A stretch of 64,000 nt of DNA from NCBI GenBank assembly GCA_016286055.1, contig JAEERW010000005.1, positions 62,001-126,000 on the forward strand, read 5' to 3'. The position numbers and the translations under genes are program-made. This document shows, in pieces, positions 1,226 through 21,273 of this stretch (the first letter of the stretch is position 1; every line of letters starts with the position of its first letter). Origin of the DNA: Bacteroidales bacterium (GTDB lineage Bacteria; Bacteroidota; Bacteroidia; Bacteroidales; UBA3824). Below the pieces are notes generated by a model. The model did no database searches and had not been told where the DNA came from. It was given only the letters and a program-made list of their open reading frames with translations.

Positions 1226-4200
1226 TTATTTATTCTTTTTGCTAAAAATATCCTTCTTCTTCAAGCACATAACCGGCAGCACCAGCACCACGCCTACAAG
1301 CGACATTACCAAGCCGCCGATGGTGCCTACTGCCATTGGAAACCAAAAGCCTTCTGCCTCAGACCCTACTATAAAGGGTACAAAGCCGAGCGCAGTGCTG
1401 AGGACGGTGAGCATTATGGGTACAATTTTTACGTTAAAGGCTTTAAAATAGGCAGTTGCGGGTTTCATTCGCCGCTTGTATTTTTTAAACTCGTTGACAA
1501 TATAGATACTTGCGTTTACCGTGATGCCGCACAAAAGCACCATTGCCGCAAATCCTCCTATGTCGAACTTGATAGAAAAGAGGTAAAACGCCAAAAACAG
1601 CCCGATATACGACACAGGAATAATGCCGATTATGGCAAACGGATAGCGCAACGAATCAAATAGCACCGCCGTAACAAACACAATAACAGCAAGTATGAGG
1701 GCAAGCAAAATGTAATGTTTGGCTTCGTTGGGCCGCCACCAATAATAAGATTGGTTGTAACTAATAGAATAGCCCACAGGCAAACGCAGGCGATAAATAG
1801 AATCAGCCTCGGCAGAAACCTTGCCGCCCATCACCGACGAACCAATATATTCGTATTGGAGACAAAGTTGGTATTGTTGGTTTTTCTTAACTATCTGGTC
1901 TGCTGCTTGTTGCTTGCTAATTTCGCACAGTTCCGAAATCTTATAATGCCGTCCGCCAATCTCCACGGGATGGTTGAGCAGCCACCAAAGGTTGTACTCC
2001 TCCGATTGTCGCGTATACATTACAATATCCTCCAAAACATTGCCGTTCCACACCGTTGCGCAACGTTGGTCGTTGACAAAGGTTTGACGGAGAAGCCAAA
2101 AGAGATATTCTGCCGAAATGCCCTGACGAGCCATCACATCTTTGCGTGGAACAAGATGAAACTCCTGATAATCATTCTTATAATACTGCTGCTCGGCGTT
2201 GATATTCACCTCTTTGATACGCTTAAACGAGAGAAGATGTTTTTTAACGCTATCCGCCCATTGAAGAAGAGTTTCGTAGTTGTAGCCAGCCATATCGAGG
2301 CGATACGAGCCTGTGGTTTCGCGTACCGAATTTGAAAAACCCTGATCTTGAAGACCATAGACGCTCCAACTGCCTCCGCCGAGTTGCAACCCTTTGCTTA
2401 TGATGTTGGATTTGAGGGTATAAGGAAACGCACCGTGCTCCACATCCTTGTTGAAACGTATGCTGATATGTCCCTGCATAGCCTGCACCGACGATTCAAA
2501 CTGCTTGATTTCCTTATAAGTAGACAGGAAACTCTCCATTTTGCGAATCAGCACATCCATCTGTTGAAAAGTGGTGCCGTAGGGAAGAGTGGCGTAAACT
2601 TGAAGCACCACCTCATTATCGCTGTTCCAATAATTTCCGTCCATAACTTTTTCGGCAAAAAGGCGTAGAGTTCCACCAAAAATAACATCGGTATATGGAC
2701 GAATATTTTCATTGTAAATTTTAGTGCCAAACACATTGTTGTAAATCTTTGCCCAAAAACTTTCATTGTTGATTTCTTTCGGCATTAAGAAAAAAGGAAT
2801 ACCAAACGCCAAAATTACTATACAAAGAGCCGTTTTCTTAAAACGAACAAGAAAGTAAACTATCTTGCGATAAACACGATTTAGGTAAACAGCCACCAAA
2901 AGTTTTACCTTATAAAATTTTAACACAGATTTTTGTTTCTGCAAACTGAGAATTGCTGGTACAAGCCAAAGAGCCACAAACACCGAAACTATAAGATTTA
3001 CAATAATAACCACTGAAAAATCATAGAGGCTGAGTTTTACCTTATCATCTAAGAAAAACACCACCGAAAGCGCACCCACAGTGGTAAGCGTGGCCGCCAC
3101 AATAGGCAAAATAGCAGCAAGATTGTGTTCTCTGCGCCAATGGTCTGCCATAATAATGGTGTTGTCGATAATAAGATTCAAAGAAATTGTGATACCTGCC
3201 AACGAATACAACTGCAACTCCACACCAAGCAAGTAATAGACCAAGCACGCCACAGCCAAATTGCACACAAGGCTACAAGTGACCATAAGCACGTGACGCC
3301 AACTAAAAGTTGTTAACCAAATGAAAACCAAGAGTATAAGCACCGTAAGCGACGAACGGAAATAAATTTTGTCTAATTCGCCACGAATGCGCTCTGTGGC
3401 ATCGTAAGCAAGGTTAAGTTCGTATCCGTGAGGCAGTTTGCGTTTTAGTTCGGCGATTTTGGCAACAGCCTTTTTTTGAAGTTCTATTTGGTTGGCAGAT
3501 TCGGAGGCGTAGAGCGAAAGGTAGATGGAGTTTAACCCATTGATACGGCGCACATAAGTAGGCGGAGCGTCGGTGATGGTCATCTTAACAAGGCGGTTGA
3601 GACATACGAGCGACGAATCGGGCAAGGGCAGATAAATATCATCGAGATTAAACACCGTGTCGGCAACGTTGGTGCTTAGCGTATACTTGCCTATATTCTT
3701 GTGAGAGCGATAGTTAGATATAGCCGACTGAATATCCATTTCGGAAATTCCAAGACGTTGCAACAGTTCGGAATCGTATTCCAAACGGCGTATTTTGCGT
3801 TCGGCGCCAGTGATTTCTACCTTAGTGATTTCGCCAATCTCGGCAAAGCCCGTTTGAAAGACATTTTCAGCAGTTTGCAAAATTTCTGACGGCGGCAGAA
3901 GGGCATTGACGGTATAAGAGAGAAAAGGACCTTGTGAATCGTCGGCGGCACTCTGCGTATAAATCGACGGATAAGATACACCTTGTGGCAAATCGCTCCA
4001 AACCTGACGGATAAGCGTGGAAACCTCAAAACGGGCAGCGTCGATGTCGGTATGCTTATCTAAACGCAGCGTAATGCGCCCACTGCCGTTTTGCGACGAC
4101 GATTCAATATCCTCAACGCCGCTCATTCGGGCAAACATAGCCTCCAAACGACTTGTAACCTCAGATTCCACCACCTTGCTTGTGGCTCCGTTCATCGAAA

Positions 4201-4339
4201 AATATACCGAAATCACAGGCATTTTTTCCGAAGGTTGGAGTTTCAACGGCAGATAAGGCAAAAACGCAAACCCTATAAGCGACAAGCATATAGCGGTAAC
4301 AATTACGGTAAAAGGCGATATGTTTTTTGCGTTTTTCAT
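1226..4339 (-). CDS. RND efflux permease (AcrB/HAE family), second permease of operon
   Basis: 1037 aa, RND topology; TM4 Asp motif LNLIIDNTIIMADHW; 4-bp start/stop overlap with upstream TolC gene. Confidence 0.9.
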   Translation of the reverse strand: MKNAKNISPFTVIVTAICLSLIGFAFLPYLPLKLQPSEKMPVISVYFSMNGATSKVVESEVTSRLEAMFARMSGVEDIESSSQNGSGRITLRLDKHTDIDAARFEVSTLIRQVWSDLPQGVSYPSIYTQSAADDSQGPFLSYTVNALLPPSEILQTAENVFQTGFAEIGEITKVEITGAERKIRRLEYDSELLQRLGISEMDIQSAISNYRSHKNIGKYTLSTNVADTVFNLDDIYLPLPDSSLVCLNRLVKMTITDAPPTYVRRINGLNSIYLSLYASESANQIELQKKAVAKIAELKRKLPHGYELNLAYDATERIRGELDKIYFRSSLTVLILLVFIWLTTFSWRHVLMVTCSLVCNLAVACLVYYLLGVELQLYSLAGITISLNLIIDNTIIMADHWRREHNLAAILPIVAATLTTVGALSVVFFLDDKVKLSLYDFSVVIIVNLIVSVFVALWLVPAILSLQKQKSVLKFYKVKLLVAVYLNRVYRKIVYFLVRFKKTALCIVILAFGIPFFLMPKEINNESFWAKIYNNVFGTKIYNENIRPYTDVIFGGTLRLFAEKVMDGNYWNSDNEVVLQVYATLPYGTTFQQMDVLIRKMESFLSTYKEIKQFESSVQAMQGHISIRFNKDVEHGAFPYTLKSNIISKGLQLGGGSWSVYGLQDQGFSNSVRETTGSYRLDMAGYNYETLLQWADSVKKHLLSFKRIKEVNINAEQQYYKNDYQEFHLVPRKDVMARQGISAEYLFWLLRQTFVNDQRCATVWNGNVLEDIVMYTRQSEEYNLWWLLNHPVEIGGRHYKISELCEISKQQAADQIVKKNQQYQLCLQYEYIGSSVMGGKVSAEADSIYRLRLPVGYSISYNQSYYWWRPNEAKHYILLALILAVIVFVTAVLFDSLRYPFAIIGIIPVSYIGLFLAFYLFSIKFDIGGFAAMVLLCGITVNASIYIVNEFKKYKRRMKPATAYFKAFNVKIVPIMLTVLSTALGFVPFIVGSEAEGFWFPMAVGTIGGLVMSLVGVVLVLPVMCLKKKDIFSKKNK

Positions 4340-5808
4340 CTTAGATTTTCAAAGTCAAACTGTTCGGAAAGCGAAACACCAGCGGCAAAATCGTAAAGAG
4401 TTTGCTGACGCAGGCTATAATAGCATTGCCAATATTGATACATTGTTGATACATAATTGTTTAAAGCCGTTTGCAAACGCTGTTGCGATGCCGAAAGTGT
4501 GGTAATATCAATAGCCGCATTTTGAAAACGCTGCACATTGGCATTGTAAACTTCTTGGGCAATGTTTTGAGTCTCTTGTGCGCTTTGCAGTAGGTAATAT
4601 CTTGATTTTAATTCACTTATGGTAACAATCAAGTTTTGTTCCAACTCTTGAATATTTTGTTCTTGATCGATACGGGCAATGTTGAGCGAGTTTTCCGCCT
4701 GATTCCGTTGACCCTTGCGCACACCCCAGTCTACAATAGGAATTGCAAGCGAAACCGAAACCACATCGCGGCGCATAGGGTCGTTGTAAACATCTTCAAA
4801 TTTTTCTGCCTGCTGGTTAAACCCTATACTTGCATTAACACTCGCAGTAAAACGGTTCTGTTTTTTTACACGATCCAACTCGCGTTCCGCCTCTGTTACC
4901 GACTGCATTTTTTCTAAGATTAAATAACTGTTTTGATGCATATAATCAAGGGCTTGGTGAGTGTCAACATCAAATTCTTCGGGGTTATCGGGGAGAATAA
5001 GTATAATGTCGGTATCCTTGTCAATGCCAAGATAAGTAGTCAAATTTAGCGATGCTTTTTTAACAGCAACCTCAGCCTCATAGACCGAATTTTTGGCGTT
5101 TACCACATCTAATTGCAAAGTCATAAGGTCAGTTTTGGTAATAGAGGCAATTTGAAACTTCCGCTGACCCATAACATAAAGCGAATCGCATCTATCTACT
5201 TGATTTTTTGCGTTTTTCAATTGATATTGTGCTTGTGCAAGATTAAAGAAATATGCAAGCGCAGTGGAGGCAATCTGTTCGGCATTATAGATATATTGCA
5301 GTTTGGCTTTTTCAAATTTAACGGGTTCTATCTTCTTGTCCCACTTGAACTTATTATATCCAAACATTATGTGCGAATATCCAATGCTGAGCGGAACCGA
5401 TGAAAACTGATTGTAGGTAGTTGCACCAAAATATCTAAGATAATCGAGACTTGTATTAATTGTAAAAGTTCCGCCCAAAGGTGTAAAATTCTGCGAAAGA
5501 ATAAGGTTTCCATTGGCAAGATACGATTTTTGCTGACGGTAAACGTCCATATCACTTTCGGAATCGTAACGCGAAATCAACTGACGGTTGTAAGCCACAG
5601 GGGTTAACTGCAACGTTAGCGAAGGCAATCTATCTGCCTTGTAATTACGCCATTGCCAATAACTTGACATATACATATTTTTGTATCTAAACGCCGTGAG
5701 CGAACTATCCTGAGCAAGACGGATAACCTCAGGTAGTGTAAGAACCTTTTGAGCGTTAGATATTTGCGCAAAAATCAAAATCAATATTATAATAAAACTA
5801 TTTTTCAT
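4336..5808 (-). CDS. TolC family outer membrane efflux protein
   Basis: 490 aa, signal peptide, two long coiled-coil halves typical of outer membrane efflux proteins; sits between two RND genes. Confidence 0.9.
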   Translation of the reverse strand: MKNSFIIILILIFAQISNAQKVLTLPEVIRLAQDSSLTAFRYKNMYMSSYWQWRNYKADRLPSLTLQLTPVAYNRQLISRYDSESDMDVYRQQKSYLANGNLILSQNFTPLGGTFTINTSLDYLRYFGATTYNQFSSVPLSIGYSHIMFGYNKFKWDKKIEPVKFEKAKLQYIYNAEQIASTALAYFFNLAQAQYQLKNAKNQVDRCDSLYVMGQRKFQIASITKTDLMTLQLDVVNAKNSVYEAEVAVKKASLNLTTYLGIDKDTDIILILPDNPEEFDVDTHQALDYMHQNSYLILEKMQSVTEAERELDRVKKQNRFTASVNASIGFNQQAEKFEDVYNDPMRRDVVSVSLAIPIVDWGVRKGQRNQAENSLNIARIDQEQNIQELEQNLIVTISELKSRYYLLQSAQETQNIAQEVYNANVQRFQNAAIDITTLSASQQRLQTALNNYVSTMYQYWQCYYSLRQQTLYDFAAGVSLSEQFDFENLR

Positions 5809-8800
5809 AACTTTTTGGTTTTACTAAAACAATATATATCAACGGCATCACGAACAAACTAACAAAAGTGCCGACAGCCATTGTAGAAATCATAGCCACA
5901 GCCAAAGGCTGTTGCAATTCGGAACCCATATCGGATGTAAACAAAATAGGCAACGCCGCTCCGATAGTGGTGAGCGAGGTCATAACAATAGCCCTGAGTC
6001 TGCGCTGTCCTGCCGTGTGAACAGCCGTAGCAATCGACATTCCTTGCTTGCGCAACTCGTTGATAGTGTCGAGTTTAAGAATAGAATCGTTAACAATAAT
6101 ACCGCACGAAACTATAATGCCAATGCCCGACATCAAATTGAGTGTGCAACCGCTAAGCCACAGAACCACAAGGGCAAAGCACACGTCGATAGGAATCTCT
6201 ACCATCACAATCAAAGGTTGCAGAAAACTCTCAAACTGAGCGCACATAATAAAGTACATCAGCATTATAGAAATCAAAAGAATCACTGCCAACTGCTTAA
6301 CCATAGCCTTGTTTCCAAAGAAAGCACCAGAAAAATCCACATCCCAACGATTGGTAGAATTTACAACCGAACGCACTGTATTACAAAGTGTTTCGGCATC
6401 GTCAACATCATAGAAATATATCGGCACATAACGTCCGTTTTTGCCAGCGGTAACGGTTTTTAATTCTTGTGCGGTGGTCTGCCTTACCAAACGTCGGATT
6501 GGCACGTAAGTATTTGATTTACTATTGTTATCAAACACATTTATAAAACCTTCGGCAATGAATTTATCTACATTATTACCATCGCCTTTGATATATACAG
6601 GCATATATTGATTATAAGAATGAAGTTCGGTAACTTGCTCACCCGCCACCACTTCGGTAATAAGGTTTTGCAGAGTTTGAATATTTACATTATATAATTG
6701 TAGAGCCTGACGGTCGATAATCAAAAGTTTTTGAGGTACAAATGCAAGAGTAGACGAATGTTGGTCGGGCAAAGCGGTTTTTATCTTGCCCTCAATATCC
6801 TTAATCTCATCGCTTGAAGCCTCGTAGCCACGCTCCGAAAGTTGCGCCACTATATCAGCCTCAGCAGTTTCAAATAGTTTTTCAAAGATAGTAACAGGAG
6901 GGGAAAATTTAACCGAAGCATTAGGATAATTATCTTTAAGCCAAAGTCTTATAGCATTATTCAAAGGAGCGATACTGTCGGGCGAAGAGGTTTTAAAATA
7001 TAGTTCCGCCTCGGTTTTAGACAGTTGGTTGGCTTGGTCTACCACATAATCTTGCACACCGATATAAGCCGTAGACTCAATTGGAATATCGTTTACTGCG
7101 CTGAGCAGCAGTTGAGTACGGCGGCGGTTTTCATCGATGTTTATATCATCGTTCCACTCGATAGAAGACACTTGTTCATAATAATCAATTTTTGGCATTT
7201 TACTTTTGCCAATAACTGTAAACATAAGCCAACAGAGCGGCAAAGTTAGCAAAACAATGATAATCACAACTTTTTTATGATTTAAAATAAAGTCGAACAC
7301 ACGGTTGTAACCTGCCGATATTGTTTGGATATGTCCTCGGTTTTCATAGCCTTTTTTGGCAACAGATTTTGCCATAAACACACGGTATACCACCGGCAGA
7401 AGCATAATTCCCACCATATACGACACCGCCAAACCAGCCGTTATAGCAAAAGCCTGATCGCTGAAAATTGCACCTGCCATTCCATCTATGAAAACCAATG
7501 GTACAAACACCGCCACTGTGGTGAGCGACGAACTTAAAAGCGGCGTAATCAATTCGTTAGTAGCACCCACACACGATGTACGGAGAGTGCGTCCACGCTG
7601 CTGCCATTGGGCAATGTTTTCGCAGACAATCAGCGAGTTATCTATCATCATACCCACCACAAGAATCAATCCCGAAAGCGATACAATATTCATAGATTTT
7701 CCAAACACGTAAAACGGTACAAATGTGATAATTACCGACGTTATCATACTTATACCAATCACCATCGATGAACGCAATCCGCCCATAAACATTATTGCCA
7801 CAAAAATTATGAGCAAAAATCCCAAAATCAAGTTTTGTTTTAGGTTTGAAATTGTATAATCCAAAAGTTCGGTCTGATTTCTACAAATCTGAAAATCAAG
7901 GTTAGGAAACTGCTCCGAAAACTGCTCCACAATTTCGTTGATACGGCCGCGCATTGCATCCAAACCTTCGTCAGACTGCTTGATAACTGCAAGAGTTACA
8001 ACACGTTTGCCACCAGCCATCGACAATCCTTGCTCCTTAACAGTAGAGGTTTCGATACGGCAGACATCCTTCAACTGAATAATCCTTTCGCCCGATTTGA
8101 TATAGATATTTTCTACATCGTTTTTACCAGCAAGAATTGTTGCCACCTTGATGGTATATTCATAGATTCCGTCTTTTACACGCATACTTCCCGCGTCACG
8201 GTTGTTGTTTTGGAGAGCATTGGTAATATCTTGAATTTCAAGACCATAAACACGCATTTTGTCCATATCTGGCGTTACCATAATACACTGCGACGGAATA
8301 CCTGTAATATCTGCCATAGCCACCTCGGGCAGTTGCTCCACACGTCGGCGGATGATGTTTTCTACCGCCTGACACATCTGCAAAAACTCCGTCTGGTCGC
8401 CCTTATCGTCTTTAAGTGAGATATTTAGATAAAAAACTGGAATATCGGTAGCACTCGCCTTGATAGCCTTTGGACGCTTGGTAGATGGCGGCAGATAATT
8501 CATTGCGGCATCGATTTTTTCATTAACCTCGATATATGCGTAATCGGTGTTGGTGCCAAATTTAAAACGCATATTAATAATGCCGATACCGTCGCGCACC
8601 TGACTTGTAATCTCGTCTAAACCGTTAACTTGCAGCATATTATTGCGCAGCGGCTGTACCACAGTGTTTTCTAATTCCGACGACGACATATCAGCATCAG
8701 AAGTTTGAATGGTAATCTGCGGAATGGCAATATCGGGCAAAAGCGACACCGGCAAAGTGTTGTACATAACCGCGCCAATTATCACAAACGCCAAAAAAGC

Positions 8801-8839
8801 CATTATCACCGCAACGGGACGCCTAACTAAAAAATCCAC
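5798..8839 (-). CDS. RND efflux permease (AcrB/HAE family)
   Basis: MDFLVRRPVAVIMAFLAF N-terminus (GTG start), GMMIDNSLIVCENI TM4 motif, 1013 aa. Confidence 0.95.
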   Translation of the reverse strand: MDFLVRRPVAVIMAFLAFVIIGAVMYNTLPVSLLPDIAIPQITIQTSDADMSSSELENTVVQPLRNNMLQVNGLDEITSQVRDGIGIINMRFKFGTNTDYAYIEVNEKIDAAMNYLPPSTKRPKAIKASATDIPVFYLNISLKDDKGDQTEFLQMCQAVENIIRRRVEQLPEVAMADITGIPSQCIMVTPDMDKMRVYGLEIQDITNALQNNNRDAGSMRVKDGIYEYTIKVATILAGKNDVENIYIKSGERIIQLKDVCRIETSTVKEQGLSMAGGKRVVTLAVIKQSDEGLDAMRGRINEIVEQFSEQFPNLDFQICRNQTELLDYTISNLKQNLILGFLLIIFVAIMFMGGLRSSMVIGISMITSVIITFVPFYVFGKSMNIVSLSGLILVVGMMIDNSLIVCENIAQWQQRGRTLRTSCVGATNELITPLLSSSLTTVAVFVPLVFIDGMAGAIFSDQAFAITAGLAVSYMVGIMLLPVVYRVFMAKSVAKKGYENRGHIQTISAGYNRVFDFILNHKKVVIIIVLLTLPLCWLMFTVIGKSKMPKIDYYEQVSSIEWNDDINIDENRRRTQLLLSAVNDIPIESTAYIGVQDYVVDQANQLSKTEAELYFKTSSPDSIAPLNNAIRLWLKDNYPNASVKFSPPVTIFEKLFETAEADIVAQLSERGYEASSDEIKDIEGKIKTALPDQHSSTLAFVPQKLLIIDRQALQLYNVNIQTLQNLITEVVAGEQVTELHSYNQYMPVYIKGDGNNVDKFIAEGFINVFDNNSKSNTYVPIRRLVRQTTAQELKTVTAGKNGRYVPIYFYDVDDAETLCNTVRSVVNSTNRWDVDFSGAFFGNKAMVKQLAVILLISIMLMYFIMCAQFESFLQPLIVMVEIPIDVCFALVVLWLSGCTLNLMSGIGIIVSCGIIVNDSILKLDTINELRKQGMSIATAVHTAGQRRLRAIVMTSLTTIGAALPILFTSDMGSELQQPLAVAMISTMAVGTFVSLFVMPLIYIVLVKPKSYEK

Positions 8840-8875: not shown

Positions 8876-9922
8876 TCAATAAATTATATCGCTACGGTCG
8901 GCAAGATAAGTGTTACCCGAAACCACCACCGAATCACCCTCGTTGATACCCGAAATTATGGCAATATGGGTGCTGTTTTCGATGGAAGTTTCCACATAGC
9001 ACCAATGCGCCTTATGATCTTTGGCAGTGAACACCACAGGACGGTTTGAACGCATTACCACAGCACTTTTGGGCACAGAAACAAACTCGCCCGCCTGCTG
9101 ACTAATTTTTACACTAACATTCATACCTTCAAATAGTTGCGATGGTTTAAAGATTTTAGCCTTTACCCTCACCATACCATTGGATTCTACCGTTGGATTC
9201 ACCTCGGTAACTTCGCCCTGCCAAGCCTTTCCGGGCATCGAAAACACCGAAATTTCTACCTTTTGACCAGTTTTCACAAACGAAAGTTCACTTTCAATGA
9301 TGGTAAAGTCCACAGTCATAGAGTTTTGGTCGATGATTCTACAAAAAGGTTTTGATTGCTGGGCAAGGTTGCTCGGCTTGTCGCTGAGATTGGCAACCAC
9401 ACCTGCAAAAGGTGCTTTGAGCGTGGTGTGCTCGTAATCATATTTGGCAGAATTGTACGACGCAAGTGTTTGAAGATAACCACTTTTCACCTCAGCCAAA
9501 TGCCTGATATTTTCGGGAATGTCGGGGTCGTCGGGACTGTACCCCTGCCCTATCAGAGCCTCCTTCATCTGCAATTTAGATTGTTCAAGAGCCGCCTCCG
9601 ACGATTCCATCTGATTTTTAAGTTTAAAAGCCTGCAAACGAGCCACCACAGCACCCTGCGAAACTGTCCGTCCGTTAGCAGTATAAACATCTGATATTGT
9701 GCCGTTTACCTCCCAATAAAGATCGGCAAAACGCCCAGCCGAAAGTTTGCCATTGCTCACAAGTTCTTGATTAAACTGCGACTTGGAGGCCAAAGCGGTT
9801 TCCACCTGCTGACGTTCATCGGCAATGATATTCTGCTGTCGCTCTTCATCGCCACCGCCACCCTTGCCGCAACTCATTGTCACAAACGGCAAACTAATTA
9901 ATAACCAATATTTTACACTCAT
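8876..9922 (-). CDS. RND efflux periplasmic adaptor subunit (MFP)
   Basis: Lipoprotein signal (MSCGKG); GTISDVYTANGRTVSQGAVVARL lipoyl-like hairpin; APFAGVVANLS; upstream of RND permease. Confidence 0.93.
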   Translation of the reverse strand: MSVKYWLLISLPFVTMSCGKGGGGDEERQQNIIADERQQVETALASKSQFNQELVSNGKLSAGRFADLYWEVNGTISDVYTANGRTVSQGAVVARLQAFKLKNQMESSEAALEQSKLQMKEALIGQGYSPDDPDIPENIRHLAEVKSGYLQTLASYNSAKYDYEHTTLKAPFAGVVANLSDKPSNLAQQSKPFCRIIDQNSMTVDFTIIESELSFVKTGQKVEISVFSMPGKAWQGEVTEVNPTVESNGMVRVKAKIFKPSQLFEGMNVSVKISQQAGEFVSVPKSAVVMRSNRPVVFTAKDHKAHWCYVETSIENSTHIAIISGINEGDSVVVSGNTYLADRSDIIY

Positions 9923-9999: not shown

Positions 10000-11019
10000 T
10001 CAATCAAATTTAATTTCATCCAAATCTAAATATCCGAATTGGATTGTATCTATAAATGAAAAATACAAACGGTTTTTGGTTTCATCATACGACAACCTGA
10101 ATGTTGAATAGCCCAAATCTAATGTTGCAACATAGTCACCATTCTTATTAAAAACCTGACAAAGATGTGCTTGGGTATAATCTGTCCAATTGTCTCCGTT
10201 GTATAAAGCAAGGAGATAATCATTTGTAAAACAACAATCTGTAAAAGTATATAAACCTGTGGTCTCAAAATCGGGTCCATAGATATTACATTGCAGATTA
10301 CCATCAAAATCAACAATACTTACCATATCATAATGCGTATTACATTCTGCCACAAGTCTATGTTTTTCAGATGCTGCAAATGCAAACTGTTGTTTATCAA
10401 CACGAGGGACAAAATCAAAGATTTTAGTTTCGCCTGTAAGCATATTAAAAATGCCAATTGTTTCATAAAAAGTGTTTACGCTTGTAGGTACTGTAATTTG
10501 AGCAATAGAAAAAGTGTCATTGACATAATGAAAGTCGGTCGGAATAGTTTTTTCAATAAGATTGCACTTGATGAAAGGAGTGTAAGTAGAATCGTTTACC
10601 AAACTATCCAAATTGTAACTCCGCATCTGATACGAGCCAAAATCACTCACAAACATTCCGCCTTGATGATTGTCAATAGCCTTTCCGATACTTACGTACT
10701 CAAAAGGTCCTTGACCCCATCGGCCTGTGGAACGAAGGAAATGATAATCTTCTTTATCAAAAACAAAAATCATATCATCATAAGACTTATTATCAATAGC
10801 CACAAGATAATTCTCTAGATTGCACAAAATTGAACCATTATGTAACACCACATCACCAAAATCAATCTCGTGAATCTTGTCCTTTACATTAATCACATTG
10901 TCGCGGGAACTCTGATTTTTTTCCGTGCTATTGGTAGATGAGCATCCGCAAACCATCAAGACAAGCACCATAGCCATAATACTTAATTTATTCATATTCA
11001 TACATTTAGTATTAAACAT
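10000..11019 (-). CDS. 6-bladed beta-propeller (BF3164-like) lipoprotein
   Basis: Lipobox LMVCGCSS; RSTGRWGQGPFEYVSIGKA and LLALYNGDNW motifs typical of the family; resembles 16594..17619. Confidence 0.75.
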   Translation of the reverse strand: MFNTKCMNMNKLSIMAMVLVLMVCGCSSTNSTEKNQSSRDNVINVKDKIHEIDFGDVVLHNGSILCNLENYLVAIDNKSYDDMIFVFDKEDYHFLRSTGRWGQGPFEYVSIGKAIDNHQGGMFVSDFGSYQMRSYNLDSLVNDSTYTPFIKCNLIEKTIPTDFHYVNDTFSIAQITVPTSVNTFYETIGIFNMLTGETKIFDFVPRVDKQQFAFAASEKHRLVAECNTHYDMVSIVDFDGNLQCNIYGPDFETTGLYTFTDCCFTNDYLLALYNGDNWTDYTQAHLCQVFNKNGDYVATLDLGYSTFRLSYDETKNRLYFSFIDTIQFGYLDLDEIKFD

Positions 11020-11092: not shown

Positions 11093-12781
11093 TTATAATT
11101 CATTGTTATTCAGAGTGTTTTCTAATTCAATAACATTGCGACGCATCTCGTCGGTGGCAGAGGATTCGGTTTTGAGTGGTTTAGTGGTAATAATCTGATA
11201 CTCAGAGAGTCGTTGCTGTTTGTGAGTGTCAGCCCATTCGGGGTCGCTATACAATAAATAGAGCAAATAATGCGGATAGAGGCGGTTTGGCAAACGATAA
11301 ACAGAGCGAAGATAATAATCTTCTGCAGACTGATAATTACCGCGAGCTTGAGCACATTCACCAAGAATATTCAAAATCATCGGGTCGCCGGATATTTTCG
11401 CAGATTCACAAAGAGCATACTCTGCATGTACATATTTTTTGATTTTAAAGAGCGAATGTCCGTATTCGTAAAGGAAACGGTCATTCCAACGCATTCCATC
11501 ATATATTTTAGAATATGAATCTGCCGCTTTGGCATAAATTTTTGAAGTATACATAAATCGCATCTTATCCCATTGACGCATAAAATCAACACGTTGCGAA
11601 TAAAAATTAAAACGGGAGAACATAGCCACCGAAACCACAACAGCCAAAAGGCAAAAAACAATTTTGAATGCCATTTTCTGTCGTTTTTTTACCCAAACAC
11701 ATCCTATCAAAGTCAACAACAACATAGCCACAAACGCCGGAATATGAGCAGGATATGATGCAAAAGCAAAAACAGCAAACGATATTACTGCTCCACATAA
11801 TCCGTATCGAAGGCGACGATGACCAAACACACAAATCACAACTATCAATGCCACAACTATCAGAAACAAAGGCAATCCGTGTTCGATAGCAAAATTGAAA
11901 TACTCATTGAAGGCATAATCAAGAATAGCGGCAACATCCTCTTCGTGACCTAAGTTGTTGATACCATGTTGATGAATTTGTGATTGAAAATAACGCTCTT
12001 GCGCATTGGCATAAGCAGTAGAAAAATTGTTGTTACCAACCCAAGGCGAATCCGTAACAGCCATCGCGGAGATTTTCCAAAGGAAAACCCTACCGAATGC
12101 AGATTCACTTTTTAGTTTCCAAACTCCTACAGCACAGATTGATAATAGTATTATACTTAATGAAATAAAAACACGTTTGTTGAATCTACACAAAACTTTT
12201 TTGAAAAAATCAGTAGAACACCAACATACATACACCGACGAAACCACAGCGGCAATCCAACCGGTGCGGCTCATAGTGGAAGGTAGCACCACAAGCATCA
12301 CCGAAATCATTGCCAACAATACACAGTAACGGATGGTTATCAGATATATAATAGGCCTAATAAGCAATATTTTTCGACGATAAATCTGAGAAGTTTTGAT
12401 AAAAAGGTACAAAACCACCGGAAGAGCCATTGCAATATATCCGCCCAAAGGTCCGGGATTGTAGAACGAGCCTGTTAATCTAAACATATTGTGATAGGAA
12501 AACCTAAACCCGTACAACTGCATCAATCCGAGCACAGCCTCCACTGTTGCTGCCGTGCAGATACACCATAAAAGAACGTCGATAGCCACTTTTGGTCTCA
12601 CAAACAGCAACATAGCCACCGCGAACACAGCAAATATTCCACGAAAAAAGAAGTTGCGCCATTGGCTCACCTGCGGAATCTCGTCGGGCATATGCGCCGC
12701 ACCAAAATTCAATAATAAAAACCACAGTAAAACCGCAAACGCAACCACACAAAAAGCACACTCAAATATTCTATTTTTCAT
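11093..12781 (-). CDS. O-antigen ligase/polymerase-like membrane protein with C-terminal TPR-like region
   Basis: Multiple TMs, LTGSFYNPGPLGGYIAMALP motif of Wzy/WaaL family, C-terminal helical repeat region. Confidence 0.8.
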   Translation of the reverse strand: MKNRIFECAFCVVAFAVLLWFLLLNFGAAHMPDEIPQVSQWRNFFFRGIFAVFAVAMLLFVRPKVAIDVLLWCICTAATVEAVLGLMQLYGFRFSYHNMFRLTGSFYNPGPLGGYIAMALPVVLYLFIKTSQIYRRKILLIRPIIYLITIRYCVLLAMISVMLVVLPSTMSRTGWIAAVVSSVYVCWCSTDFFKKVLCRFNKRVFISLSIILLSICAVGVWKLKSESAFGRVFLWKISAMAVTDSPWVGNNNFSTAYANAQERYFQSQIHQHGINNLGHEEDVAAILDYAFNEYFNFAIEHGLPLFLIVVALIVVICVFGHRRLRYGLCGAVISFAVFAFASYPAHIPAFVAMLLLTLIGCVWVKKRQKMAFKIVFCLLAVVVSVAMFSRFNFYSQRVDFMRQWDKMRFMYTSKIYAKAADSYSKIYDGMRWNDRFLYEYGHSLFKIKKYVHAEYALCESAKISGDPMILNILGECAQARGNYQSAEDYYLRSVYRLPNRLYPHYLLYLLYSDPEWADTHKQQRLSEYQIITTKPLKTESSATDEMRRNVIELENTLNNNEL

Positions 12782-12796: not shown

Positions 12797-13630
12797 TTAC
12801 CAAACAAAATCCACCCTCCCCACTATAAACTCCTCGGGCACGAGCCCCCACGAGCGCGAATCAACAGAGTTCATACAATTGTCGCCGCACATAAAGTAAA
12901 GTCCCTGATTCATAACGTGATACTCAACAAGCGAATCTTTGGCAGTGTAATAATGTCCATCATCGCGGAGAGAGAGGGTGTCGCCTATCTCCCACTCCAC
13001 TATATGACCGTATAGCAGATAGTTATGAAGGTTTAACTCTATGGTGTCGCCCTGCTTGGGCATATAAAGCGGACCGAACTCGCGGATATTCCACGGAATC
13101 TCCTCACGAAGCGGAAAAGCACCGTAAGGGATATGGTAGTCGGTAATGGTGGCGCTGTCCTTGGTGTAAAACTCCACCTGATTCTGCGCCTCCACATTGC
13201 CGAGGTCGCCATCGTAGCCGTTGACGTAATAATGGGCATTATGAATATAGAAAGTATCACCGGGGAGTGCCATACAGCGTTTTACAAAATATTTCAACTT
13301 GTCGAAATGCAGCAAATGCCAACCCCAGCAATAAGGATTGTTAAACACCATAATATCATTGCGTTTTGGTTCGGAATATCCCTTGCCACGAGTTATATCG
13401 CCATGCTGAATAGAATCGAGACTATGGGCAAAAATTCTACGTCCGTATGCCAAACGATTAACATACACACGATTGCCGGGCTTAACCGTTGGGTACATCG
13501 ATTCGGTAGGCACTTTAAACGACATTACAACGTAGAGTTTAAGATAAATCCGTGCCGTCCAAATCAATACCCCCGTCACCACCAAACACAATATAGTGTT
13601 CACTATCCTATCTTTCTTTTTCTTATCCAT
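12797..13630 (-). CDS. lepB: signal peptidase I
   Basis: Catalytic Ser motif PTESMYPTVKPGNRV, catalytic Lys motif KRCMALPGD, box E CGDNCMNSVDSRSWG. Confidence 0.92.
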   Translation of the reverse strand: MDKKKKDRIVNTILCLVVTGVLIWTARIYLKLYVVMSFKVPTESMYPTVKPGNRVYVNRLAYGRRIFAHSLDSIQHGDITRGKGYSEPKRNDIMVFNNPYCWGWHLLHFDKLKYFVKRCMALPGDTFYIHNAHYYVNGYDGDLGNVEAQNQVEFYTKDSATITDYHIPYGAFPLREEIPWNIREFGPLYMPKQGDTIELNLHNYLLYGHIVEWEIGDTLSLRDDGHYYTAKDSLVEYHVMNQGLYFMCGDNCMNSVDSRSWGLVPEEFIVGRVDFVW

Positions 13631-13752: not shown

Positions 13753-15699
13753 CTACCTCCATTCTATTTGCTCTTTATCTCTGATAATAAACGGCCGTTC
13801 GTCCCAGCCTTGGGTATGATCTTTTACCCAATAGAGTGCATGAGAAGGCACATCATCGTAGTGAAGAACATTGCTTGTAGCGGTCTTTTTGCCAAGCGAA
13901 ACCCATTGATTACCATTGTAATAAAGCAATTCGTAAACATCACCAACATGAATATCATTGTCGTCGCTACGCGGTATTATGCGCACATTACGGATTTGTT
14001 TTTTGGTGCCAAAATCCATTCCAACCCAACTACCATCGGGATTATCCTCGGTTTCGTAGTTGGTAAGATAATTACCATCAAATGCCTTTTCGATTGATTC
14101 CTTTGATGCTGAATTACAACCTATAGGAGTGCCTGTTGCAATAGTATCGACATCAAAAAATTGCAGTTCTGCAATGCTGCCGTGGCTACCATCAGCACCA
14201 AAATAACGCCAATAGCGATAACCGTTGTTATCATTGATTTTAAACTTATCGGGAACATATTGATTTTCAATAGTTACCATAGTAATTGCATCGGAATAAT
14301 CCGCACGGTTGGCGGCTTGAATCTTACCGCCTTTGAGCCTCAGACGCATCTCGGCAACATTGCGGTTTTGAAAATATTTTCGGTAAATATCCAAAGAGCG
14401 GGTCTGCGTGCCGTCGAACTTGTAATATTCTATTTCACCGTTTTGATGAAGAATAAAAGGGTCACTGAGTGAAACAAGCGACTTGCCGTTGAAACCCATA
14501 GCAAGATAAAGCACATTACGGCCGATATTTTTGAAACAAGCCTTGCCATTGTTGATTTCGCCATAGTCTACGAGCGACCATTCAACATTATGACCGTTGA
14601 AAATGGCTATGTAACAATATTTTTCGGCGAGTTTTTCTTTGGACTTTATCTCTATTTCAATATCCGAAGTGCGGGTGTACATCTCGGTAACATCCTTTTC
14701 GCAGAAATCGAAAGGATATTTAAGGGCGGATTCGTTGCGGTATATCACACGCTCGCGGTTGATAGCGTATGTATTGCGGTAAACCTTCGGAAAACGTTGG
14801 TCAGGGAAGAATTTTTTACCGTGTTCAGTAGCCAAGTCCCATTCTGATGGCAGTTGTTCGCCACGGTCGGTAAGAATCACGTCCCACGAATGACCCGCGC
14901 GGAAACGTCCGTAGTATGGTGCTTGGTCGATAACTGTGGGAATACCAAGACTGCGGTAGGTGTTGACGCCGAGGGTAACATAATCGATACACCTTCCGTG
15001 GGTTATTCGGCGCATAGTAGGTGCGCTGAGCAAAGGATAGCCAGCCTCGGTGTACCATCCGTAGCGCGTCACCTTGCTGAGAATCTCATTGCGGACAATA
15101 TCCACGGTGCGGTAGGTGGTGTTCATCTCGTCATCGTCGGGAAGCTGGCTTTTAAGATTGTCGGAAAAGAAATTAGAAAGAGTATCGCGCCAATAGTCAA
15201 ATTCCTGTTTTTCAACGGTTTTATACGGCAGAAGCCACTCACAGAACTCATCGAAAGTGAGGTGCGATGCCCACGGACGAGTCTTCCACTCGTTGAAGGC
15301 GTGGTCGATGCTGTAAATCAAATAATCGGCGGTAATCACCTTAATGTCCGACACAAAATTCCTGTCGATACCAGGCATCACCTCGGTAGTGATATAATAG
15401 AGAGTATCACGCTGCTGCACAGGCGAAAGGTCGGATTCGAGCACAGGAATCGCCGCCTCATAGTACATATGTATAGCCGCGCTGTCCTTATACGAAAAAT
15501 GCGCCGGCATATTCTCGATAAGAAACTCTGCAGCAGCGAGTTTCTCAGGGTCGGACTTGTAGTGCGCAAGGACACGTTCAAGTTCGGGGCGGTTATCGCC
15601 TGCCTGCTCCAAGGCATATTCGAGTGGCGAAACTTGGGAGCAGGAGGCTAATAACGCGGATAAAGAAAGTGAGAGAGAAAAGAGAAGAATAGTTTTCAT
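13753..15699 (-). CDS. transglutaminase-like domain protein with C-terminal discoidin (F5/8 type C)-like domain, lipoprotein
   Basis: Lipobox LLASCS; GRCIDYVTLGVNTYRSLGIPTV...RAGHSWD transglutaminase-like Cys/His; KAFDGNYLTNYETED...WVGMDFGTKKQIRNVRIIPR discoidin-like. Confidence 0.8.
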   Translation of the reverse strand: MKTILLFSLSLSLSALLASCSQVSPLEYALEQAGDNRPELERVLAHYKSDPEKLAAAEFLIENMPAHFSYKDSAAIHMYYEAAIPVLESDLSPVQQRDTLYYITTEVMPGIDRNFVSDIKVITADYLIYSIDHAFNEWKTRPWASHLTFDEFCEWLLPYKTVEKQEFDYWRDTLSNFFSDNLKSQLPDDDEMNTTYRTVDIVRNEILSKVTRYGWYTEAGYPLLSAPTMRRITHGRCIDYVTLGVNTYRSLGIPTVIDQAPYYGRFRAGHSWDVILTDRGEQLPSEWDLATEHGKKFFPDQRFPKVYRNTYAINRERVIYRNESALKYPFDFCEKDVTEMYTRTSDIEIEIKSKEKLAEKYCYIAIFNGHNVEWSLVDYGEINNGKACFKNIGRNVLYLAMGFNGKSLVSLSDPFILHQNGEIEYYKFDGTQTRSLDIYRKYFQNRNVAEMRLRLKGGKIQAANRADYSDAITMVTIENQYVPDKFKINDNNGYRYWRYFGADGSHGSIAELQFFDVDTIATGTPIGCNSASKESIEKAFDGNYLTNYETEDNPDGSWVGMDFGTKKQIRNVRIIPRSDDNDIHVGDVYELLYYNGNQWVSLGKKTATSNVLHYDDVPSHALYWVKDHTQGWDERPFIIRDKEQIEWR

Positions 15700-15719: not shown

Positions 15720-16604
15720 TTACTTAACCGTTCCTCTGATTTTAAAAACCAAAGGTTTTTCTTTGTTCTTTAATTTTACATATACTTCTCGATAAAAAAC
15801 GCCACCCCCATCAGGGGTGTAAGTAACAGATAAAATGGCTGTTTCGTTTGGTTTGATAACATTTTTATTGATTTGCGCAGTTGTACATTCGCACGAAGTA
15901 AAAAGCGTGTCGATTACCATTTCGGACTGTTCTGAATTTCGGATGGGAAATGTTGCCGCTTTGGTTTCAGATATAGAAAACGTGCCGAGATTTACCTCGT
16001 GGGTATTGTCTTGCGTTTGTTGCGGATTATAATCTATTCCCAAACGCTCGCAGATTGTACGAATGTAAAGTTCCTTGATTTTCGGATTTTGGACGGGGTT
16101 GCCGATAAGAATGACACGGTTGGCGGAATCCAAGAGGAAACAGTGGAAACGTTCATCGGGTGGAAAATGATTGAGTTTATTTAGAGAATCATTCATGTCT
16201 AACCAGATTGGGTAATCAAAACGACTTGCTATTAGTGAAGAACGTAATTCCCTAAGCGTATTTTTTTGTTTATCTGGATTTATCACCAACACAAATGATA
16301 CTCTATCTTGAACAATGTTAGTTATTTCTGTGATAAAAGATGCCCATTCATACATTTTCATTTTACAAATGGTACATCCCAATGAATCAACGTAAAAAAG
16401 AATTTTGCAATTAGTGTTAAGATTATTATCTATCGTATCTTTCACCAACCATGTAAAAACCATATTGTCTGCTAATAAAATACGTTTCTGATACCATTCA
16501 TTGCAAAGGGATTCAAAATCATTCCTTGTGTTATTGCAATACGTTAATGATATACACAATAGAAATAACAAACAATAATTGAAAAAACAAATCCTATTCT
16601 CCAT
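15720..16604 (-). CDS. DUF1573-domain protein with N-terminal thioredoxin-like region
   Basis: C-terminal TLFTSCECTTAQINKNVIKPNETAILSVTYTPDGGGVFYREVYVKLKN is DUF1573-like; N-terminal CTICKMKMYEW. Confidence 0.75.
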   Translation of the reverse strand: MENRICFFNYCLLFLLCISLTYCNNTRNDFESLCNEWYQKRILLADNMVFTWLVKDTIDNNLNTNCKILFYVDSLGCTICKMKMYEWASFITEITNIVQDRVSFVLVINPDKQKNTLRELRSSLIASRFDYPIWLDMNDSLNKLNHFPPDERFHCFLLDSANRVILIGNPVQNPKIKELYIRTICERLGIDYNPQQTQDNTHEVNLGTFSISETKAATFPIRNSEQSEMVIDTLFTSCECTTAQINKNVIKPNETAILSVTYTPDGGGVFYREVYVKLKNKEKPLVFKIRGTVK

Positions 16605-17619
16605 AACTGAATTTCATTACACACAATTCTGGATTTTCTCCAATACCATAAATAGCCTTTTCTTTTTCATCTACGGCAATACCATGAATCAGAGTATCCA
16701 AATGATATATTCTAATAGGATTACCTTGATAATCAAAGACTAAAACAATATCTGTGTGGTTGATATCATGAGTGCCGTTATATAATACCCAGATATAATT
16801 ATCGGTTAAGCAACTATATACAGAAGAAAATTTTGTATCTTTTGTGGGTCCGATAGTCATAGGATTAATTTTGAGATTCGGAATAAAGTGATCCGGGCCA
16901 TAAATACGGTGCAATAATTTAAGATTACTATCGTAAATATCAAATAAATCCGTTAACCCGTAAGTTACAAAAACTTTGTCATTTTTGAAGTTATAGTAAA
17001 GACGAGTTTCATAAAATTTACGTATTTGAAAATTGGTCAACATCTGACCTAAATTCATCTGTGGAAAATCAACATGAGTATTCTCTCTTTTGCCAGTACT
17101 ATCATATAAGGATAGCATGGAGTCATCATCTTCAAAATGGGAAGCAGCATATTTGCCATTATTCAATGCCAAAATATTAGTAGCACCGGGAATAGAAATA
17201 ACTGTACTAAAACCAATACTACTTTTTGATAAAAAATCATGCTTATCAAATTCTGACAAATCACCTACTTGCAAATCAAAAGTATATACTCTACTATCAG
17301 AGAATTGCATCGACCAACAAGATAATTTTTCATTTGGACCTACTCCATATGGTAAATTCTGACCGACAAGATGTCGACTTTTCTTATTAAATATCTGAAC
17401 GATATTGGCACAAGTACGATCTGTCAATATCAATAGAGAATCAACGGAATATATTCTTTCTGGCTTCCAAACAGAATCCAATTCAAATATTTCACTTTTC
17501 AATTCGATTAAATCACCGAAATCATTATAGGAAACAACGCGTGCATCGTCCATAATAGTTACAGAGGAACAGCCAAACAGCAATACGGACACTATAACAA
17601 AAAAATAAATTCTTTTCAT
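16594..17619 (-). CDS. 6-bladed beta-propeller (BF3164-like) lipoprotein
   Basis: Lipobox LLFGCSS; GQNLPYGVGPNEKLSCWSMQF; overlaps both neighbours by a few bp (operon). Confidence 0.75.
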   Translation of the reverse strand: MKRIYFFVIVSVLLFGCSSVTIMDDARVVSYNDFGDLIELKSEIFELDSVWKPERIYSVDSLLILTDRTCANIVQIFNKKSRHLVGQNLPYGVGPNEKLSCWSMQFSDSRVYTFDLQVGDLSEFDKHDFLSKSSIGFSTVISIPGATNILALNNGKYAASHFEDDDSMLSLYDSTGKRENTHVDFPQMNLGQMLTNFQIRKFYETRLYYNFKNDKVFVTYGLTDLFDIYDSNLKLLHRIYGPDHFIPNLKINPMTIGPTKDTKFSSVYSCLTDNYIWVLYNGTHDINHTDIVLVFDYQGNPIRIYHLDTLIHGIAVDEKEKAIYGIGENPELCVMKFSYGE

Positions 17620-18203
17620 TTTTTATAAATAACATAAGAAAAAATTATACAAACTGTTGTTGATTGATTTAAAACTTCCAAATCAGTTTTAGATATATTT
17701 GTAGTATTTGAGCATCCAAGCACTCTCAATAATACATCCTCAGGAAGTGTTGCTTTCTTGTCAACAATCAAAGCAATAGGAACAGATGTGTTGTACTGAA
17801 TATCTTTTTTCTCAAAAGCATATACCTTAACACTAGGCAACTTGTACTTCAAAGAGTAAAGACTAGTAAAACTTCCTTCAGCAGTTAAATCTACATATTT
17901 AAAAACTCTACCATCCAAACCCAATGCAATATACAAGCTTGGAGAATTTAAATCATGCAATGAATAATTCATGAATAATTCAGCCTTAGCTGCATCAGCT
18001 TCATTTTTAATATTTGAATGATAAATATTTAATGAAGCTAAAAAATTGGTTGGTAAAAATTTATAAACAACTTCTGCTTTCTTAGCAAAAAGAGCCGAAG
18101 GTGAAGGACCATTTGACACTCCGCCTCCAATTGCAACAACACCATTTTGAGCCATCAAAATGCTTGATAAAAATGTGAAAACAAACAATAAATTATATTT
18201 CAT
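17616..18203 (-). CDS. hypothetical secreted protein
   Basis: Signal peptide MKYNLLFVFTFLSSILMAQ; ATGA-type 4-bp overlap with downstream propeller gene. Confidence 0.7.
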   Translation of the reverse strand: MKYNLLFVFTFLSSILMAQNGVVAIGGGVSNGPSPSALFAKKAEVVYKFLPTNFLASLNIYHSNIKNEADAAKAELFMNYSLHDLNSPSLYIALGLDGRVFKYVDLTAEGSFTSLYSLKYKLPSVKVYAFEKKDIQYNTSVPIALIVDKKATLPEDVLLRVLGCSNTTNISKTDLEVLNQSTTVCIIFSYVIYKK

Positions 18204-18230
18204 CTTTTTTCAATTTAGTTGTTAAACAAA

Positions 18231-18268: not shown

Positions 18269-18275
18269 GATAAAT

Positions 18276-18527
18276 TTAAATAATCGGATACATATTTTCA
18301 CATCGATAAACAGACCTATCTCTCCAATAGGCTATATCACAATAGTAACCATATGCATAACGACAATGTAAATAACAATCTGCTTGTGTTGGTTCGCCTT
18401 CTGCTAACAATTCAACATTCTCAATCTGTAAATTGCTCATTGTTCTATTAACATTTGGTTCTGTCGCTTTAATTACGCCTAACGTGGCTGCGACAACAAC
18501 AGTTAAGCATATAAAAAAATATTTCAT
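18276..18527 (-). CDS. NVEALA-like secreted peptide, four-Cys Tyr-rich C-terminus (peptide B)
   Basis: 83 aa; hydrophobic leader; SNLQIENVELLAEGEP leader motif; CYLHCRYAYGYYCDIAYWRDRSVYRC. Confidence 0.75.
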   Translation of the reverse strand: MKYFFICLTVVVAATLGVIKATEPNVNRTMSNLQIENVELLAEGEPTQADCYLHCRYAYGYYCDIAYWRDRSVYRCENMYPII

Positions 18528-18680
18528 TTTATTTATTTTTAATTAATATTATCTTTAGCAAGAATAAACTACCACCCTAACCTGATTTCGGGTCATCGTC
18601 CTCAGTGTTTATTAACATCACGAATTGAATTGTAGTTAAATAGAGGACGTTTCGATTGTATTATTATTTAATATAATCCA

Positions 18681-18932
18681 TCATTTCGGATAAAAACCTT
18701 CACATCGGTAGAAATCTGATCTATCCCACCAATAAGCTATATCACAAGAATAACCATACACTGGATTACAAACTTTATAGCAATCAGAATGTGACGGTTC
18801 ACCTTCTGCCAACAATTCCATATTTTCCAACTGCAAATCAGACATCGTGTTATTAACATTAGTTTCAGTTGCCTTCATTACGCCGAAAGCAGCGGCAGCA
18901 ACTACGGCTGCTATAAAAAATACTGTTTTCAT
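18681..18932 (-). CDS. NVEALA-like secreted peptide, four-Cys Tyr-rich C-terminus (peptide A)
   Basis: Start re-assigned to ATG at 18932 (MKTVFFIAAVVAAAAFG); SDLQLENMELLAEGEP; CYKVCNPVYGYSCDIAYWWDRSDFYRC; paralogue of 18276..18527. Confidence 0.75.
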   Translation of the reverse strand: MKTVFFIAAVVAAAAFGVMKATETNVNNTMSDLQLENMELLAEGEPSHSDCYKVCNPVYGYSCDIAYWWDRSDFYRCEGFYPK

Positions 18933-19209
18933 TGTATATAAAATTTTATTATATTTTAAATTTGCAGGACAAACACCTTCCTCCCTACCCTGCGCTCGGG
19001 ACATCGCCCTTGGTATTAATTTACATCCCGCCTTGGGCTTGGTTTCGGGATTGGCTGCACCGTAGGCAACCTTTGTGAGTTTAATACGTTTCTAATTGCA
19101 CCTCCTTATTTTATAATAGGGGTTTTACAATAGGGCGGCGGCGAAACAAGTTTTGAGAATATCGTGTAGCACGTCGCCCGTTTATATATGCTGATATTCA
19201 ACACATTAC

Positions 19210-19778: not shown

Positions 19779-19797
19779 CCAAAAAGTTATTCTCAAC

Positions 19798-21273
19798 ATG
19801 AAAAACATCATTAGTGCGGCTTTGATAATAGTTTTTTGCAGTATAGCCGCATGCACAGAGCAAAAAACGGAACGATACAAACAGTTAGAGGCCGTAGACT
19901 CTCTATCGAGGCAAAACCAAAATGATTCAGCAAAATATTTGCTCGACTCTACGGGAGCAATACAAACCATAGAAAGCGAAAAGGCTCTATATAACATACT
20001 ATCTGTCAGATTATATGGAACACAAAAATACCCCAAAATATTAGATTCTCTACTAAATTATTCCGAACAATATTTCAAGTCGATAAACGACTCATCGCAC
20101 CTTGCCGAGGTATATATGTACAAAGGAGATGGTTGTTACTTATTCAAAAACAAATACGATAGTTGTGCATATTACATTAACCAAGGAAAACAATTAGCAG
20201 ACCAAGAAGAGCCTGACCATTATCTTCTTTCTCAACTTTATTGGTATCAAGTTTTATTAGATCATGTATCGGGCGAGTTTCATCAAATGATACAGGATGC
20301 GGAAATGCAATCATACCATGCTGAAAAATCCGGCAACAAACGTCAATCAGCATACGCTGCTCTTAATACTGTTACCTCTCATAAATATGCCAACGAAACC
20401 GAAAATATAGATTTGTATATTCAAGCGGCACTTAATTGGTCGAATTATCTCAAACCACAAGATAAGGTGTACATATACAACGTTTATGGAAATATGTACA
20501 TTGACAATAAACCAGAAACAGCAAAAGAAATCTTTGATAAGGCATTAACAATACAACCCGATTCAAAATTAACTAAAGAAAACCTCGCACGCCTATACGT
20601 AAAACAAGGTAACATAAAACAAGCGGAATTGCTCTGCTACGAATGTTCTAACCTAATCTGGTCGGATGATAAGATAGACATTTGGACCATACTCGCCGAT
20701 TGTAAAATTGCATCTAATAATCTTACTGAAGCAATCAAAATACAAAAAAATATAATATCCGAAAAAGATTCCATTATAAAGCGTATTAATAATCATAAAC
20801 CAAAAAAAGCAATACTATCTTCTACCCCAAATGAAACCAAAGAAACAAAAGAAACAAATAATACACTGATAATGAGGGTATTGATATGTGTATTTGCAAT
20901 TTCAACGATATTTTTTGCAGTTTTGTTCATTATTCAAAAACAAAAGACAAAGGCTTTGGAATCAAAAGTTCACGACAATAATCCTCATCCTCAAGAAAAG
21001 ACCTTTATAGAAATATTGGCAGGTAAAGAGAATATGTCGCAATGGAACAAAAAAATGCAATTAGATTTTATTGATTATTGTCGAGATTTACATCCGGAGA
21101 TATTAAACCAAATAGAAACAGAATATCAACCTTTAACGCCAACGTTAATGATATTTCAAATTCTCTCAAAACTCAAAGATCCAAAAGAAATTCAAAATAT
21201 TATGGGCATCACCGAATCAAGTTATTACAGCAATATTTCGCGTATTAAAACGAAAAAGATAACTCTGGAATAA
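19798..21273 (+). CDS. TPR-containing membrane-anchored transcriptional regulator-like protein
   Basis: N-terminal lipobox-like AAC; TPR-like repeats; TM LIMRVLICVFAISTIFFAVLFII; cytoplasmic C-terminus with HTH-like LKDPKEIQNIMGITESSYYSNISRIKTK. Confidence 0.75.
   Translation: MKNIISAALIIVFCSIAACTEQKTERYKQLEAVDSLSRQNQNDSAKYLLDSTGAIQTIESEKALYNILSVRLYGTQKYPKILDSLLNYSEQYFKSINDSSHLAEVYMYKGDGCYLFKNKYDSCAYYINQGKQLADQEEPDHYLLSQLYWYQVLLDHVSGEFHQMIQDAEMQSYHAEKSGNKRQSAYAALNTVTSHKYANETENIDLYIQAALNWSNYLKPQDKVYIYNVYGNMYIDNKPETAKEIFDKALTIQPDSKLTKENLARLYVKQGNIKQAELLCYECSNLIWSDDKIDIWTILADCKIASNNLTEAIKIQKNIISEKDSIIKRINNHKPKKAILSSTPNETKETKETNNTLIMRVLICVFAISTIFFAVLFIIQKQKTKALESKVHDNNPHPQEKTFIEILAGKENMSQWNKKMQLDFIDYCRDLHPEILNQIETEYQPLTPTLMIFQILSKLKDPKEIQNIMGITESSYYSNISRIKTKKITLE

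Follow-up and report, generated by a model that had tools for sequence, protein, structure and literature searches.

Bacteroidetocins (class IIf; PMC6671954) are four-cysteine peptides of ~40 aa from Bacteroidales producers, and their clusters encode thiol oxidoreductases, which the authors relate to Bacteroides having no general machinery for disulfides (PMC6671954). The peptides analyzed here resemble them in size, number of cysteines and producer, and a candidate thiol oxidoreductase gene, coding for a CxxC thioredoxin-like lipoprotein, lies nearby; however, bacteroidetocins possess a double-glycine leader of 15-16 aa and a peptidase-containing ABC transporter, whereas our system combines a hydrophobic Sec-type leader with a signal peptidase and an RND pump. 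B. fragilis secretes the antagonist BfUbb, whose leader is of the signal-peptidase-I type and whose gene lies near variable propeller genes; the producers needed no immunity protein (PMC5705921). BfUbb is similar to our case in being a small secreted protein with such a leader and adjoining variable beta-propeller genes, but it has a ubiquitin fold and is an unrelated cargo, no signal-peptidase/pump cassette has been described for it, and of the two only BfUbb is a proven antagonist. Fulvocin C-related proteins (NF033852) are likewise cysteine-rich, secreted and found with a related transglutaminase/DUF1573/TlpA/O-antigen-ligase set, but are larger and unrelated in sequence. The pump of our locus is like the tripartite RND pumps of the MdtABC type, with one adaptor, two RND proteins and an outer-membrane channel; unlike them, it is tied to peptide genes, a signal peptidase and propellers. 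RND pumps are chiefly known for small molecules. Annotations of gut Bacteroidales list NVEALA genes (PF14055), in many cases more than one per genome, but assign them no function, and our search of the open-access literature found nothing relevant on the family.

We herein show that two peptide genes of the window (the whole 64,000-nucleotide stretch of DNA that was analyzed) are members of this known but functionally blank family. The original prediction described an adjacent pair of 83-aa ORFs with a common cysteine arrangement, and both ORFs are present on the minus strand, at 18276-18527 (Cx3C-x7-C-x12-C) and 18681-18932 (Cx3C-x7-C-x13-C), with the expected motifs IENVELLAEGEP and LENMELLAEGEP. 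The kinship with NVEALA, previously suggested on the basis of the leader, was confirmed by a PF14055 profile search, in which both copies exceeded the gathering cut-off of 27 bits. They share leader, motif, length and propeller neighbour with the family and differ from it by a four-Cys tail of the CDI type and the partner gene P195. Most of the information on the peptides lies outside 18276-18932, in the minus-strand run of 13 genes that they head, which extends over 17.7 kb with intergenic gaps of -11 to 153 bp and has the following order:

18681..18932, minus strand, NVEALA peptide precursor, upstream copy, 83 aa, with the four-Cys tail CYKVCNPVYGYSCDIAYWWDRSDFYRC (PF14055 36.1 bits, E 5.1e-9)
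18276..18527, minus strand, NVEALA peptide precursor, downstream copy, 83 aa, with the four-Cys tail CYLHCRYAYGYYCDIAYWRDRSVYRC (PF14055 30.7 bits, E 2.5e-7)
17616..18203, minus strand, P195, exported protein with no fold match in the PDB, encoded by the partner gene of the CDI tail type
16594..17619, minus strand, TolB_like six-bladed beta-propeller lipoprotein (PF15869 87.9 bits; lipobox LFGC)
15720..16604, minus strand, thioredoxin-like (CTIC) and DUF1573 lipoprotein (PF07610 67.5 bits; CxxC; lipobox LTYC)
13753..15699, minus strand, transglutaminase-like lipoprotein (TG) with F5/8 type C domain (PF00754 29.3 bits; Transglut_core weak, E 0.074)
12797..13630, minus strand, accessory signal peptidase I (S26; PF10502 105.4 bits)
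11093..12781, minus strand, O-antigen-ligase-like (Wzy_C) membrane protein with TPR end (PF04932 33.8 bits, cut-off 31.7)
10000..11019, minus strand, second propeller lipoprotein (weak DUF4934 match; local propeller profile)
8876..9922, minus strand, membrane fusion protein (MFP) of the pump (HlyD_D23 65.6 bits)
5798..8839, minus strand, RND transporter 1 (ACR_tran 523 bits)
4336..5808, minus strand, TolC-like outer membrane channel (OMF; OEP 91.9 bits)
1226..4339, minus strand, RND transporter 2 (ACR_tran 311 bits)

Compared with the orthologous pair in a sister species (genome G012, the contig in question being yak-rumen MAG contig JAGCYI010000015.1), the peptides show 73% and 84% identity and dN/dS values of 0.331 (copy at 18276) and 0.225 (copy at 18681); judging from these comparisons, both ORFs are real genes under purifying selection. 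An alternative, earlier ATG would extend the upstream copy to 107 aa, while the 83-aa start agrees with that of the orthologue. Further species of the genus, as well as a second family, also have homologues with conserved cysteine spacing. The claim that the cysteine/aromatic core is better conserved than its flanks did not hold, as leader (64%) and tail (66%) are equally similar between the two copies; across all NVEALA members, conservation is confined to the leader, and the tails are highly variable. The tail is predicted to form a short helix and a hairpin (pLDDT about 80), and a fold search with the predicted peptide gave no match at E<=0.001.

To place the pair within its family, we compared 53 NVEALA genes, from 9 genomes of the window's genus and 14 of 295 genomes sampled across the order. 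In a 300-genome draw across the phylum, only two genomes, both Bacteroidales, gave NVEALA matches. Aligned with 50 other peptides, the window copies carry NVELLA and NMELLA as their form of the motif that follows the hydrophobic leader. The last residue of the motif (-1) is Ala or Gly in 51 of the 52 peptides, position -3 is Ala or Leu in 49 and position +3 is Glu in 41. Sites of the signal-peptidase-I type have a small residue at -1 and an aliphatic one at -3, and the end of the motif fits such an AxA-like site. It is situated ~20 residues past the hydrophobic segment, which is more distant than usual for signal peptidase I, and because of this unusual distance we only postulate cleavage there. 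Tails mostly contain two, four or six cysteines, and one genome can hold several different tails. The earlier description of a disulfide-stapled, processed peptide thus receives indirect support, from the cysteine spacing, the AxA-like site, the CxxC lipoprotein and the accessory signal peptidase. At one further locus (L063, G001:C6), the NVEALA gene has an in-frame TAG and the propeller is broken into two ORFs; this locus is possibly decaying.

Several other identities were considered and rejected. A double-glycine bacteriocin or natural-product precursor was dismissed, as the hydrophobic leader of ~42 aa has no GG site and matches no NCBIfam leader model; no peptidase-containing ABC transporter was found among the genes at 1226-21273. 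Neither peptide matches the fulvocin C-related model (NF033852, cut-off 35 bits) at E<=1, and the window genome contains no match to it. PHROGs matches were at chance level only, which speaks against phage origin, and eight cassette proteins gave no PADLOC match to a known anti-phage defence system.

One type of tail is associated with the P195 gene. A subset of tails, the CDI type, follows the pattern C-x2/3-C-x5-9-C-(D/A/V)-(I/L/V)-...-C and usually ends in aromatic-Pro. Downstream of all 10 genes of this type lies a gene for a P195 protein (~195 aa, exported), either immediately or with a second peptide gene in between, as opposed to 1 of the 43 other NVEALA genes (Fisher p=5.6e-10, an optimistic value since the tail definition came from the same gene set). 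The lone exception (L059, 9912) has a tail of the related WCDV type. The pairing was also seen in family f98 (G115, L101). A single-sequence search of 295 genomes detected no P195 outside the genus, and an iterated local profile recovered one there, in G115. The structure of P195 was predicted with good confidence (AF2 pLDDT 83.8); the predicted fold had no PDB match at E<=0.001, and a PDB sequence search gave no significant match. P195, or the propeller, may have a binding or immunity role, for which both are candidates only.

The remaining genes recur with NVEALA genes to different degrees. A propeller is encoded within three genes downstream in 48/53 cases and a thioredoxin/DUF1573 gene within four genes downstream in 26/53, while TG and signal peptidase genes occur within eight genes in 19/53 and 13/53, counts affected by the many loci that end at contig edges. 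Many NVEALA loci have no signal peptidase or pump nearby, and many of these are truncated by contig ends. The Wzy_C protein recurs in the cassette at 10 loci. The CxxC motif is kept in 22 of 25 longer thioredoxin/DUF1573 homologues, and the thioredoxin-like lipoprotein of the cluster, which carries it, has a putative oxidising activity. The Ser and Lys motifs of the window signal peptidase are intact, and we call this enzyme accessory because further S26 peptidases are encoded elsewhere in the genome. A PDB sequence search with the propeller gave no significant match, and an enzymatic role for it, e.g., in sulfotransfer, was considered and set aside as unsupported. Cys237 and His270 of TG do not vary across ten homologues, and Transglut_core rises above the cut-off in one homologue (L106); the third catalytic residue is not conserved, and the transglutaminase-like fold may equally be that of a protease. 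The sole match in a PDB sequence search with TG was a carbohydrate-binding module. TG homologues were also met in other settings (L165 and L174; G249, G015), with a CxxxCxxC radical-SAM-like ORF close by in L165 and small peptides with double-glycine leaders in L174, so that TG may serve several kinds of peptide cluster.

Judged from the genes alone, the run contains a complete MdtABC-like double-RND set, i.e., adaptor, two RND subunits and outer-membrane channel. The full order MFP-RND1-OMF-RND2 stands behind cassette genes in the window (f1) and likewise in G170 (f56), G115 (f98), G302 (f27) and G279 (f101), the last without an NVEALA match there. G007 has RND1-OMF-RND2 behind an MFP and G015 has MFP-RND1-OMF, and reduced versions occur in G087 (f70) and G116 (f99). 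Among the 295 genomes, RND2 was present in 12 of 14 genomes with NVEALA and in 45 of 281 others (p=6e-8; p=9e-7 without the window's genus), and full-length TG in 7 of 14 and 6 of 281 (p=1e-7), with kinship handled by dropping the window's genus only. The window genome encodes only four RND proteins, two of them in this run. In several genomes the pump set stands alone, without NVEALA peptides (L192, L193, L199). Taken as a whole, the linkage of the peptides and the genes of the run into one cassette is well supported.

Starting from the genes, their order and recurrence, the pairing of tail and P195, the conserved cysteines and the AxA-like site, all of which can be read from the sequence, we infer which peptidase would cut, that disulfides may form, what the pump may carry and that the product could be antagonistic. 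The hydrophobic N-terminus would route the precursor through Sec, and the accessory signal peptidase of the run would cut after the AxA-like end of the motif (NVELLA, NMELLA), freeing a tail of ~40 aa that starts with EGE. In the periplasm, the CxxC lipoprotein, together with the propeller lipoprotein and the tail-specific P195, could oxidise or otherwise handle the four-Cys peptide, which the MFP-RND-OMF-RND pump would then carry out of the cell. Other bacteria might be the targets of the peptide there, and P195 or the propeller could serve as its cognate partner or for self-protection. We assign this whole explanation (Sec-exported, cleaved, oxidised, pump-exported, antagonistic peptides) a probability of about 0.5. 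That the peptides are the processed, exported cargo of this cassette is probable, whereas antagonism against other bacteria falls slightly short of an even chance. We favour an exported, oxidised and antagonistic peptide because of the precedents, the highly variable tails and the tail-specific partner. More tentatively, we speculate that the cassette represents an undescribed secretion system of Bacteroidales, in which Sec, a dedicated signal peptidase, CxxC, TG and propeller lipoproteins and a double-RND pump would serve interchangeable Cys-rich tails and partners such as P195 for competition. Our search of the open-access literature found no description of the P195 subtype or of a cassette that combines an accessory signal peptidase with an RND pump. 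The conserved cassette gives a concrete path by which NVEALA peptides could be cut, folded and exported; if true, peptides would have an additional way out of the cell, with an RND pump and a signal peptidase of its own, and gut competition or signalling would draw on a new pool of diversifying peptides.

Related gene sets also occur outside the sampled genomes, including a pump-less form on plasmids of cultured human-gut Phocaeicola. According to its annotation, the P. vulgatus plasmid pPvulCL10_1 carries NVEALA, propeller, redoxin, lepB, O-antigen ligase, transglutaminase and propeller genes without the pump, and a pump-less NVEALA cassette is present on the P. dorei plasmid NZ_CP072250.1 (L202), where transposases (IS612B and another) lie between the propeller and lepB. 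The corresponding place on the plasmid of P. vulgatus is taken by a redoxin gene, which is intact. In B. thetaiotaomicron, the tables of one study (PMC10434189) list BT0662 as O-antigen ligase, BT0664 as 6-bladed propeller, BT0667 as signal peptidase I and BT0669 as RND adaptor; going by these annotation tables alone, BT0662-BT0669 looks like the same cassette and is its likely counterpart. A B. finegoldii plasmid combines a related TG/DUF1573/TlpA/O-antigen-ligase set with a bacteriocin gene related to fulvocin C (111.9 bits against a cut-off of 35), which lies at L200 14365-15069 beside the TG homologue; in G040, a gene of the same kind (fulvocin_rel, G040:C45:20197-20721) has a broken TG gene at a distance of ~0.7 kb.

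Upstream of the peptide genes, the following features were found:

18977..19005, minus strand, conserved element GATGTCCCGAGCGCAGGGTAGGGAGGAAG / GATGNCCCGANNNCAGGNNANGGNGG, upstream of the first peptide gene
18569..18597, minus strand, second copy of the conserved element, between the two peptide genes
19798..21273, plus strand, divergent TPR protein with membrane segment (TPR_19), possible sensor or regulator

The element occurs only twice in the 4.2 Mb genome, each time upstream of a peptide gene. The locus of the sister species has it too, as does the edge of a contig in G011; it is possibly an operator or a leader. A structured 5' RNA is not supported because the 5' regions fold no better than shuffles (z -0.38 and -1.16), and an Rfam scan of 8000-22000 gave no match. 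These features bear on the proposal that the exported four-Cys peptides serve as a pheromone between cells, in which case the divergent TPR membrane protein would sense them and control transcription via the upstream element. The confinement of the element to these genes would agree with it, as would the position of the TPR gene beside NVEALA genes in the window, L054, L058 and L066 and the strong divergence of the TPR region from that of the sister species (54% protein identity), which would befit a variable receptor. However, the TPR gene is absent from most NVEALA loci, profile searches recognised no DNA-binding domain in its product, the partner specific to the tail type is P195 and not the TPR protein, and several different tails per genome would be unusual for a single pheromone. 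Hence, we regard the signalling proposal as unlikely.

It is also conceivable that the O-antigen-ligase-like and transglutaminase-like proteins attach the peptides to glycan or to a protein of the surface, so that they act as envelope components in an adhesive or protective layer. Such a role would suit the recurrence in the cassette of the Wzy_C protein and of TG with its carbohydrate-binding-like domains, as well as the lipoprotein nature of the propellers, but a surface-anchored product would need no efflux-type pump, and a full one is kept beside these genes in several GTDB families. Moreover, the tails are too variable for a structural unit, and TG may equally be a protease. We consider the envelope role quite improbable. 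Alternatively, the true partners of the peptides might be limited to P195, the propeller and the thioredoxin-like protein, in which case the pump, and perhaps also the signal peptidase, Wzy_C and TG, would be ordinary neighbours with another job. The solitary pump sets, the pump-less Phocaeicola plasmids and gaps of 73-122 bp, which leave space for internal promoters, are in line with such a division; set against it are the recurrence of the same order in several GTDB families, the genome-level co-occurrence both with and without the window's genus, and the fact that half of the genome's few RND proteins sit here. We judge a mere neighbourhood doubtful and prefer the reading of the peptides as exported cargo of the whole cassette.

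Comparison with the sister species points to an uneven history of the locus. From 97-100% in the DUF1573 and TG genes, DNA identity drops to 81% in the peptide genes and to 52-71% in the TPR region, and this variation suggests recombination around the locus. Values of dS are 0.03 and 0.09 for the DUF1573 and TG genes and 0.27-0.48 for the peptides, P195 and propeller. The segment 19200-22000, which comprises the TPR gene and the next gene and shows the same 52-71% identity between flanks of about 90%, is by this comparison an exchanged allele. Within the peptides, the two window paralogues share the loop residues VYGY/AYGY and YP, and both sister-species paralogues (L054 10244-10887) have AWDC/AWCC and WP; such joint differences between genomes suggest gene conversion or joint adaptation to one partner.
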